A DNA stretch of 64,000 nt. It comes from Methanococcus voltae PS. Lineage in GTDB: Archaea; AGJL01; Methanococci; Methanococcales; Methanococcaceae. The stretch lies in assembly GCF_024807035.1 (NCBI RefSeq), contig NZ_JANUCQ010000001.1, positions 433,990 to 497,989 of the forward strand, written 5' to 3'. This document shows, in pieces, positions 43,589-52,125 of this stretch. Every line of letters starts with the position of its first letter. Within the stretch, counting starts at the first letter, position 1. The notes under the pieces are model-generated. The model searched no databases and was not told where the DNA came from. It was given only the letters and a program-made list of their open reading frames with translations. The position numbers and the translations under genes were made by a program.

Positions 43589-44081
43589 CTTAAATAAATC
43601 AAATAACTTAAATAACTTACATTATTATTCTTAAATTTTTAATCTTTAAATAATTTATATATGCCAAAATTTAATGAAATAATCATCATGATTATATTTT
43701 ATATTTTATAGTAGTATATTTGTCTATATTTTGCATTCGCACCAATAATAACTAGAATAACTAGAATAACTAAAAATAAGAGTTAGATATTTAGAATAAA
43801 TTCCCCCCATTCCCCTATTACTAAATATCACCACGTATTGATAATATTAATATTAATATCAATATCAATATTTTATATTTATATTTTTGTAAGAGTCTTA
43901 TACTTTAATGTATTATTTTTTAGGATGCCATATACAATATAGTAATGCAGAAAATACGGTGCAATTTATAATTAATATACTCAAAATTCTATTTTTAATT
44001 TTTAGTTTTAAATTTTAATAATTGCAATATTATAAACAATATTGTAAAAAAAGTATTTTTAAATATTTAAATGATTAATCA
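43589..44081. other. intergenic region downstream of the CBS gene
   Basis: A 490-bp gap between converging genes. It includes a pyrimidine-rich block TTCCCCCCATTCCCC at 43801-43815 and ATATCACCACG nearby, which on the minus strand reads as a ribosome-site-like GGTGATATT followed by a stop codon instead of a start. No open frame over about 30 codons. Confidence 0.4.
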
Positions 44082-44291
44082 TTAGTCTGTTATTCTATAT
44101 TCGGTTCTGTCTTTACTGAATGACAAATCGTCATTATACCACTCTTCCCAACCTATTAGCATATATCCATCAACCATAACTGATTTTCTTATTTTTTCAA
44201 GAACTTCTATATTTTCTTCGGCGTTCATAACTTCTATCCATATATCTTCGTCTTTTTTAAAATATAACTTTACAAAACGTCTTGTTGCCAT
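44082..44291 (-). CDS. hypothetical 69-residue protein
   Basis: No family recognised. A good ribosome site (ATGGGGA) lies 4-5 nt before ATG, and the sequence is compositionally normal, with a basic N-terminus (MATRRFVKLYFKKDED), a short central helix (ENIEVLEKIRKSV) and two tryptophans in IGWEEWYND. No membrane helix, signal or cysteine. It is isolated between gaps of almost 500 and 320 bp, so it has its own promoter. The reading frame is too regular for chance in such AT-rich DNA. Confidence 0.7.
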   Translation of the reverse strand: MATRRFVKLYFKKDEDIWIEVMNAEENIEVLEKIRKSVMVDGYMLIGWEEWYNDDLSFSKDRTEYRITD

Positions 44292-44613
44292 ATTTTCCCC
44301 ATCTTTTACTATATTTGGCTAATAAATATATATTTAATATTTTAACTATATACATATGTCGAAAATATGTCGAATTTAAATAGCGTTAATTTATATAATT
44401 TACATTCATATAATATATTATGAAGTAATTATGTTTTATCGATTATTATAAAATACAAGATATTTAAATTACTATATTTCAAAAGTGATACAGTATGTTA
44501 TAAATACATTAATTAAATTATAACATGTATTGTTTAAATTAAGTCCATAACTATAAGTATTTATATCAAAATATTATTTATATAATCAGTTAGTGAAATT
44601 GGGAGGCATACTT
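44292..44613. promoter_or_regulatory. divergent promoter region for the 69-aa gene and the PRC-barrel gene
   Basis: AT-rich DNA of about 320 bp. A TATA-like TATTTATAT at 44568-44576 would start transcription almost at the GGGAGG ribosome site of the PRC-barrel gene, giving a very short leader. Nothing else recognised. Confidence 0.35.
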
Positions 44614-50205: not shown

Positions 50206-50282
50206 AATTTATCCCATTAATTCTATTATCTAATTTTTAATTATGTATTGATTAATTTTTTAGTATCAGGAGTTGGTTTAAT

Positions 50283-50330
50283 GCGTTATATAATATACTA
50301 TTAAGAAACTTTTTAAAAAGTTTTCTTTAA
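50283..50330 (-). promoter_or_regulatory. promoter and palindromic operator of the small regulator
   Basis: On the minus strand TATA-like TAGTATATTATATAACGC (50283-50300) is the candidate box A. Immediately upstream, 50306-50323 is a perfect 18-bp palindrome (AAACTTTTTAAAAAGTTT) extended with one-base slips to 50301-50330. Palindromes abutting the TATA/BRE region are typical sites for dimeric archaeal regulators. Confidence 0.5.
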
Positions 50331-50819
50331 GACAACCATATTGGTAAATGCAATAAGTATTATACATTATGATTGCTACTATTATATAATCTATTTAGTA
50401 ATATTTATATGGTCTTTATATTTAAATAAGTTACATATAAATTATTAATTTTTTTAAATATATACGTTTATTTAAATTTGAAAGATATTCCAAAAATGGA
50501 AAGTAATATATATTAGATGTACCAAATCAAAAATGGGATATTATTCCCATTATTGCCCTATTATTTGTCAAGATGTTATGACGAATAAATTATGTTATGG
50601 ATAAAATTTAGTCTTATAGCTGAAATATTAATTCATTCTATTCGGATTTATGGAATGAATATATCTTAAATAAATCGAAGAACGTAAATAATCTTATATT
50701 TAGTATTTGGGGTAAATACACTTTACATATATGCCCATATAACGTAATATATACTAGTTTAATCACTATTATCAAGTTGATAAGGAATTTACATTATGTC
50801 ATTAAGTTTCTTTATTAAA

Positions 50820-50829
50820 CTTTTATATA
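50820..50829 (+). promoter_or_regulatory. orphan TATA box inside the 1.2-kb gap
   Basis: CTTTTATATA, overlapped upstream by the inverted repeat AAGTTT-N7-AAACTT (50804-50822). The nearest plus-strand gene is about 550 bp away, so this promoter must serve something else, probably the RNA below. Confidence 0.45.
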
Positions 50830-50839
50830 CTTACAATGT

Positions 50840-50936
50840 TAGTGTAATCTATTATCCAAACCCAACACTACGTGCGAATGATGGTATACTATTATTCAAG
50901 GTATATCCATTTTCCACTTATTATTTTATTTTTTTA
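50840..50936 (+). ncRNA. candidate small noncoding RNA
   Basis: Follows a TATA box at the proper distance and ends in a T7 tract (50929-50935). Two potential stems: TAGTGT (50840-50845) with ACACTA (50865-50870), and GGTATAC (50883-50889) with GTATATCC (50901-50908, one bulge). The CCAAACCCAACACTACGTGCG part is less AT-rich than the surroundings. No ribosome site or open frame. Prediction from sequence layout only. Confidence 0.35.
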
Positions 50937-51381
50937 AACCTAATAAACTGTTTTAGCTTAATATATATTCAATAAATTATTTTATTTAGATATATGACAT
51001 TGTAAAGTGATTAGATATTTGTCGAATAATAATAAAATAGCTTAAAATTTATCTTATATACTTGTTAAATATCGTATAAGAATATAAAATTTATATTGGC
51101 AATTAATTAATATATATTTTAGGATAAAATAAAGGTAAATTTTGCACAATAAGGAGAATATTTAATATAATAAGAATGGGTCGTAGGTGTAATAACCAAA
51201 AACTATATATAAAATCATGGGATATTAGTATTTTGTTTAATAAATTGGGACTTGACTATATAAATGGTATTTTTGGTGATGAATGTGCTTTTTTATAGTT
51301 TTTGAGGTTCCAAGTTAGTTAAATAAACCCCTATATTAAAATAGCTATAGAATATTTGAATTAAATAAACGTGGTGACAAT

Positions 51382-51792
51382 ATTACTCAAAAAATAATTG
51401 AAAATGTGGATAGAATTTTAGTTCAAAACATTTCAAACTTGATGGCAAGTGAAGTTAGAGCTAAGATATATATATTCCTTAGAAAGTTTGAAAAAAGTAC
51501 TGTAGAGGAAATTGCTAATGGTACAGGTATATACCCATCAACTGTAAGGGAGTCCATTCTCGAAATGTACAATTTAGGGTATGTGAACAGAGAAAAAATG
51601 AAAAAAGAAGGTTTGGGTAAAAAACCATACATTTATTCAGCAGTTGAACCTTCAGCAATTATTCAAAAGATTTCTGAAAAAGTTCAAGAAAGATTAAATG
51701 ATTTAATCGATATTGATGATAGAATCGAGGGAAAGCCAGCTACAATTAACGGTCCTATTAATATTGAAATTAATATTGCTAGCGATAAGTAA
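51382..51792 (+). CDS. ArsR/TrmB-type winged-helix regulator with possible ATT start
   Basis: Dimeric-type transcription factor of about 136 residues. The DNA-binding part is EVRAKIYIFLRKF, STVEEIANGTGIYPSTVRES, and ILEMYNLGYVNREKM with wing; the C-terminal 45 residues form a helix (KISEKVQERLNDLIDIDD) plus an Ile/Asn tail. A strong ribosome site, GGTGA at 51373-51377, lies 4 nt before an in-frame ATT at 51382; the first conventional codon is GTG 51406, which has no ribosome site. I therefore annotate from 51382 with low certainty of the start. It is upstream of a long gap and could regulate itself or neighbours. Confidence 0.8.
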   Translation: MTQKIIENVDRILVQNISNLMASEVRAKIYIFLRKFEKSTVEEIANGTGIYPSTVRESILEMYNLGYVNREKMKKEGLGKKPYIYSAVEPSAIIQKISEKVQERLNDLIDIDDRIEGKPATINGPINIEINIASDK

Positions 51793-52125
51793 TTACCGTT
51801 TATTTAGATAGTTAGCTATCTAATTTGGAATAGAAATTAGTTATCCAATTAATTAACCTTAATTATAGCATTCTTATGATTTACGTGTGGCCTATGATGG
51901 CATTAAACTCAAAATACCAATTAAAAATACTAAGAAATTATAAAATAATCTAAACTAAATAAATTAAATAATCTAAATAAACTAAAATAAAAAGTTCTCT
52001 CATTACTCATATAATTATAAAATATATATTTTATAAAATTTGAGTATTTTCTTTTTTATATTTAAAATAAAATTTAAAAATTTAAAATGCAAGTTAAGTG
52101 CAATAATTGCCTTAAAAATGATATT
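51793..52125. other. intergenic region winged-helix gene / SRP19
   Basis: A 330-bp gap between converging genes. T-rich and A-rich runs at 52020-52090 could terminate either gene. AGTTAGCTATCTAATT at about 51810-51825 has weak dyad symmetry. No open frame. Confidence 0.4.

Follow-up and report, generated by a model that had tools for sequence, protein, structure and literature searches.

One or two probable small RNA genes in a long intergenic gap of Methanococcus voltae and two sister species

What does the longest intergenic gap in this part of the Methanococcus voltae genome contain? Spanning 1200 bp (50206-51405), this gap exceeds all others in the window, by which we mean the whole 64-kb stretch of DNA that was analyzed, and in this the preliminary description of the locus was right. 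That description also placed two transcription factors on either side, and both neighbors do encode HTH proteins: a small ArsR/EarA-like gene on the minus strand to the left and a TrmB/MreA-like gene on the plus strand to the right. We conclude that one or two unannotated small RNA genes, limited to three closely related species, are probably present in the gap. An unannotated small RNA had already been proposed and is still the best reading for the gap, but the element singled out for it, unit B (50803-50936), is not the strongest candidate. That is block A (50472-50740), which lies about 300 bp upstream and is far better conserved and more structured than unit B. G+C content is 27-28% at the two candidate RNAs, A and B, versus about 17% elsewhere in the gap. 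The next plus-strand gene, put at 550 bp from unit B, is that far only when measured from nearer the start of the unit; from its end, the distance is about 450-470 bp.

Seven species of the genus were compared, the window genome (G000) and six others (G001-G006). The gap is kept in two sister species, G002 and G006; no counterpart was found in the other four, G001, G003, G004 and G005. In these four, the genes bordering the region do not stay together; G005, for example, has atwA near 347 kb but SRP19 and the closest relative of the right-hand gene near 1590-1595 kb. Gene order at the site of the gap thus varies within the genus.

The two neighbors have features of their own. For the right HTH gene, the start codon appears to be AUU (51382), which follows a GGTGA ribosome-binding site at a distance of 4 nt. 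In G006, GTA replaces the GTG at 51406, no in-frame ATG, GTG or TTG occurs upstream in any of the three species, and relatives of the gene in other species start with GTG at the matching place. If true, this would be an unusual case of a regulator gene with a conserved non-standard start codon. On the other side of the gap, 50391-50430 is conserved and includes a minus-strand TATA-like box, TTTAAATATAAAG, from which the left HTH gene is probably transcribed, its 5' leader then measuring nearly 200 nt.

Block A stands out both by its conservation and by its fold. Over a run of 160 bp (50466-50625), identity to G006 in 50-base windows is at least 85%. No longer run of this kind occurs in the 39 aligned gaps, and just one other intergenic run exceeds 150 bp at that identity, adjoining a gene start. 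No other window among 4478 intergenic ones in the native sequence folds as stably as block A, nor does any among 3384 in the consensus, a count in which conserved windows have an advantage. Its four hairpins (P1-P4; Table 1) keep 97% of pair cells in the three species. Because only three species were compared, these near-invariant pairs show no covariation at all, and those of unit B show little. The consensus energy of P1-P3 is biased toward the plus strand (z -4.3 versus -2.7), and G-U pairs in P2 and P3 are kept on that strand only; P4 scores equally well on the minus strand and does not discriminate between the two. Upstream, the expected start that follows from the TATA (50505-50512), itself kept in the relatives, falls at the foot of P1, and the palindrome TTCCAAAAATGGAA that abuts the putative promoter is a possible operator. 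Block A has no terminator of its own, with no U-tract before 50924; it may be the principal RNA gene here or form the 5' portion of a longer transcript.

Elsewhere in the window, a second isolated intergenic stretch (44179-44298), 120 bp at 85% or greater identity to G006, lies in the second-longest gap (43589-44592); the next plus-strand gene begins about 295 bp away.

Table 1. Coordinates of features in block A and unit B, numbered from the first letter of the window
Feature	Position	Strand	Remarks
Palindrome TTCCAAAAATGGAA	50489-50502		touches the BRE of block A from upstream; identical in three species
BRE/TATA-like putative promoter of A, AAAGTAATATATA	50500-50512	+	identical in three species; archaeal spacing would put the start near 50533
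Candidate RNA A, core	50531-50665	+	conserved sequence continues to about 50740
Hairpin P1 of A	50532-50551	+	
Hairpin P2 of A	50561-50588	+	
Hairpin P3 of A	50594-50620	+	
Hairpin P4 of A	50631-50660	+	
24-nt block GAATTTACATTATGTCATTAAGTT	50785-50808		invariant in three species; directly upstream of the putative unit B promoter
BRE/TATA of unit B, AAACTTTTATATA	50817-50829	+	perfect; expected start about 50850
Candidate RNA B	50850-50935	+	about 85 nt; unpaired 5' segment ATTATCCAAACCCAACA, one hairpin, U-rich 3' end
Hairpin of unit B	50872-50917	+	conserved pairing; second stem of the preliminary description
Double U-tract TTTTATTTTTTT	50924-50935	+	likely terminator; contains the T7 run and is better than first described

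No conserved reading frame covers either candidate: frames that span A or B are shifted or shortened from one species to another. Unit B had been thought to have no open frame, which is incorrect, as a 59-codon ATG frame (50796-50975) crosses it; in the relatives that frame is shifted and cut to 28 and 14 codons. In block A, the alignment contains single-base indels flanked on both sides by conserved sequence, which argue against coding. The best case for a peptide is a leaderless mRNA starting at 50533 and encoding the 23 residues MGYYSHYCPIICQDVMTNKLCYG. Its ATG falls at the expected start site and the three species agree in its first 13 residues. In G006, however, the net loss of one base shifts the frame (leaving 15 residues), although conservation of the DNA continues past that point, and there are no synonymous changes. 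We regard this peptide as very improbable, and a small-protein explanation in general was rejected because reading frames are not kept among the three species.

Unit B had been presented as a promoter, an RNA with two hairpins and a T7 terminator. Its outer parts are present. The inverted repeat AAGTTT-N7-AAACTT lies at 50804-50822 and the TATA box, TTTATATA, at 50822-50829. The full BRE and TATA, AAANNTTTATATA, has only 4 copies in the intergenic DNA of the window, one of them in unit B, and in only two cases does a gap contain a BRE/TATA with T6 or more no further than about 160 nt downstream. By alignment, this element is identical in G002 and takes a weaker form, TTTTATAAT, in G006. The operator-like inverted repeat is lost in the third species of the alignment and was rejected as a conserved feature. 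The usual archaeal spacing from TATA box to start puts the start of RNA B near 50850. The first of the two proposed stems (50840-50870) therefore straddles the expected start, and both the inverted repeat and this stem fall in or before the promoter. The raised G+C that had been pointed out is also there (27.8% over the 90 nt from 50845, in the top 4% of 1002 intergenic 90-nt windows).

At the other end of the unit, the T7 run (50929-50935) belongs to a double U-tract that is kept in G002 and reads TTTTTTATTTT in G006. In M. maripaludis, binding of aCPSF1 needs a minimum of two U4 tracts (PMC8716108), which the double U-tract fits, making it a likely terminator. On sequence evidence, then, unit B has the promoter and terminator of its own that are expected of an itsRNA, and both are kept in the relatives. 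A separate hairpin with U-tracts on both strands lies between two convergent genes at 51993-52072; six of its pairs are changed on both sides in the three species, and it may be a two-way terminator.

Only one of the two stems of unit B survives comparison. Stem 1 (50840-50845 with 50865-50870) is broken in G002, a relative with 93% identity, where ACACTA has become ACAGATA; this stem was rejected because it is not conserved and begins before the expected 5' end. Stem 2 holds: 87% of its pair cells are standard in the three species, and four pairs are changed on both sides, although this number of double changes is not unique in the window, being reached at a few other gap locations. The result was reached by 8 of 500 shuffles and was destroyed by sliding the partner. 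On the plus strand, just 10 of 500 column shuffles reached its consensus energy, against 74 of 500 on the minus strand, where it is not special; the structure tested was, however, the consensus fold of those same three sequences. Conservation of pairing, which had been proposed as a test, thus gives a qualified yes: stem 2 has compensated pairs, but the sequence identity of unit B to G006 is at the intergenic background level, and the G006 hairpin alone does not fold significantly. The candidate RNA B as a whole folds with a z of -3.2, and ATCCAAACC, in its single-stranded 5' segment, is kept in all three species of the alignment. With the compensated hairpin, the promoter and the U-tracts all kept, a small RNA gene at unit B is plausible but not proven, and the chances that it is a real sRNA gene are about even.

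Might these features belong to DNA rather than to RNA? Block A could be double-stranded regulatory DNA, with palindromic operators for the flanking HTH regulators, and the features of B could have arisen by chance in A+T-rich DNA. The perfect palindromes in block A, TTCCAAAAATGGAA and AATGGGA-N6-TCCCATT, would suit such a role, as would the HTH proteins encoded on both sides, the background level of conservation of B and the strand-indifferent P4. Operators would, however, have to explain why conservation continues without a break for 160 bp, well away from both start codons, as well as the plus-strand bias in the energy of P1-P3 and in the G-U pairs of P2 and P3, and chance would have to explain the conserved hairpin and terminator of B. 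We consider this reading rather unlikely.

A further alternative concerns the number of RNAs. One transcript of about 400 nt, from about 50533 to 50935, would make B its 3' hairpin and terminator, perhaps processed. On the plus strand, 50533-50820 contains no run of T4 or longer, where 3.1 are expected (P = 0.013; 0.011 in G002 and 0.05 in G006), and the first strong U-tract comes only at 50924. The lack of T4 runs favors one RNA, but weakly, since within this gap a T4-free stretch on the minus strand is longer still. Conversely, B has its own conserved, near-perfect promoter with the invariant 24-nt block upstream, which favors two RNAs, and the stretch between A and B (50751-50790) is not conserved. 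A single transcript seems to us unlikely.

The explanation that we prefer, with roughly balanced confidence, is a plus-strand noncoding RNA locus confined to the three sister species and most likely made up of two tandem RNA genes, whose promoters, ends and transcription we infer. RNA A would start near 50533 from the TATA at 50505-50512, extend for 130-210 nt and form four hairpins. RNA B would start near 50850 from the BRE/TATA at 50817-50829, extend for about 85 nt and consist of a single-stranded C-rich 5' segment, one hairpin and the double U-tract, at which aCPSF1/FttA-type termination would end it. A bolder form of the proposal is that A and B are one new, highly structured ncRNA of about 400 nt, or a functional RNA pair, which regulates in trans and arose in the clade where gene order differs from that of the sister species; this we think doubtful.

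Covariance models of A and B match only G000, G002 and G006, once each and in the same gap. Neither was found by these models in the four other species of the genus; B was not found in the rest of the family, nor A, the only one searched order-wide, in the order. Weak matches in G020 (E 0.04) and G008 (E 0.24) were taken as chance. The covariation search first suggested for other methanococci thus adds two sister species, with matches in the same gap, but nothing beyond the three. No Rfam family reached its gathering score; at E 10 there was one unrelated match, outside A and B. A tRNA scan gave nothing relevant, and neither tRNA nor tmRNA models matched. Exact-match scans of public genomes and viral contigs returned none, though near genomes may be left out of those collections. 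A C/D box guide RNA was also rejected: conserved C (RUGAUGA) and D (CUGA) boxes were not found, and the only CUGA of A (near 50620) is lost in G006, as read from the alignment.

By analogy of type only, RNAs A and B might regulate in trans as antisense RNAs, with the conserved unpaired segment ATCCAAACCCAACA of B forming the pairs. The complement of the 5' segment of B, TTRGGTTTGGAT, showed no clear excess over a reversed control in the three genomes; its perfect matches lie inside unrelated frames and are not shared between species. When duplex energies of A and B were ranked against 54 gene starts, a crude test, the flanking genes were not special: the left HTH gene came 18th with A and 6th with B, and the right one 43rd and 34th. 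Masking of the ribosome-binding site of a neighboring regulator, of the sRNA162 type, was rejected on these crude ranks.

The M. mazei sRNA162 is an intergenic regulatory sRNA in a 739-bp gap beside an ArsR-family regulator gene, and its homologs were detected only in two close relatives (PMC3510493); a narrow distribution is therefore not unusual for archaeal sRNAs. The present locus resembles it in lying in a long gap (1200 bp) beside an ArsR-type regulator gene, in having several stem-loops and in its restriction to close relatives. The two differ in that sRNA162 pairs with the mRNA of the neighboring regulator, whereas no such pairing stands out for A or B, and in that its expression is proven, whereas that of A and B is predicted; no sequence relation is expected. 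The likeness is a resemblance of position and anatomy, not membership. ncRNAs have also been found by G+C bias in the A+T-rich archaea M. jannaschii and P. furiosus (reviewed in PMC3432209). Like them, A and B are structured intergenic candidates with locally raised G+C in an A+T-rich genome, but they match no Rfam family and their rise in G+C is modest. The double U-tract at the 3' end recalls M. maripaludis noncoding transcripts ended by U-tracts and aCPSF1 (PMC8716108); unlike those, A and B were not found in the four other species of the genus.

Overall, this appears to be a good small RNA locus, ordinary in kind and as yet unproven, on which the preliminary description was mis-centered. 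The case illustrates that a single-genome reading can find the right gap but the wrong element. To our knowledge, the regulatory RNAs of Methanococcales are poorly catalogued. With the good genetics available in the genus, a stable, conserved candidate RNA beside two transcription factors would be directly testable.
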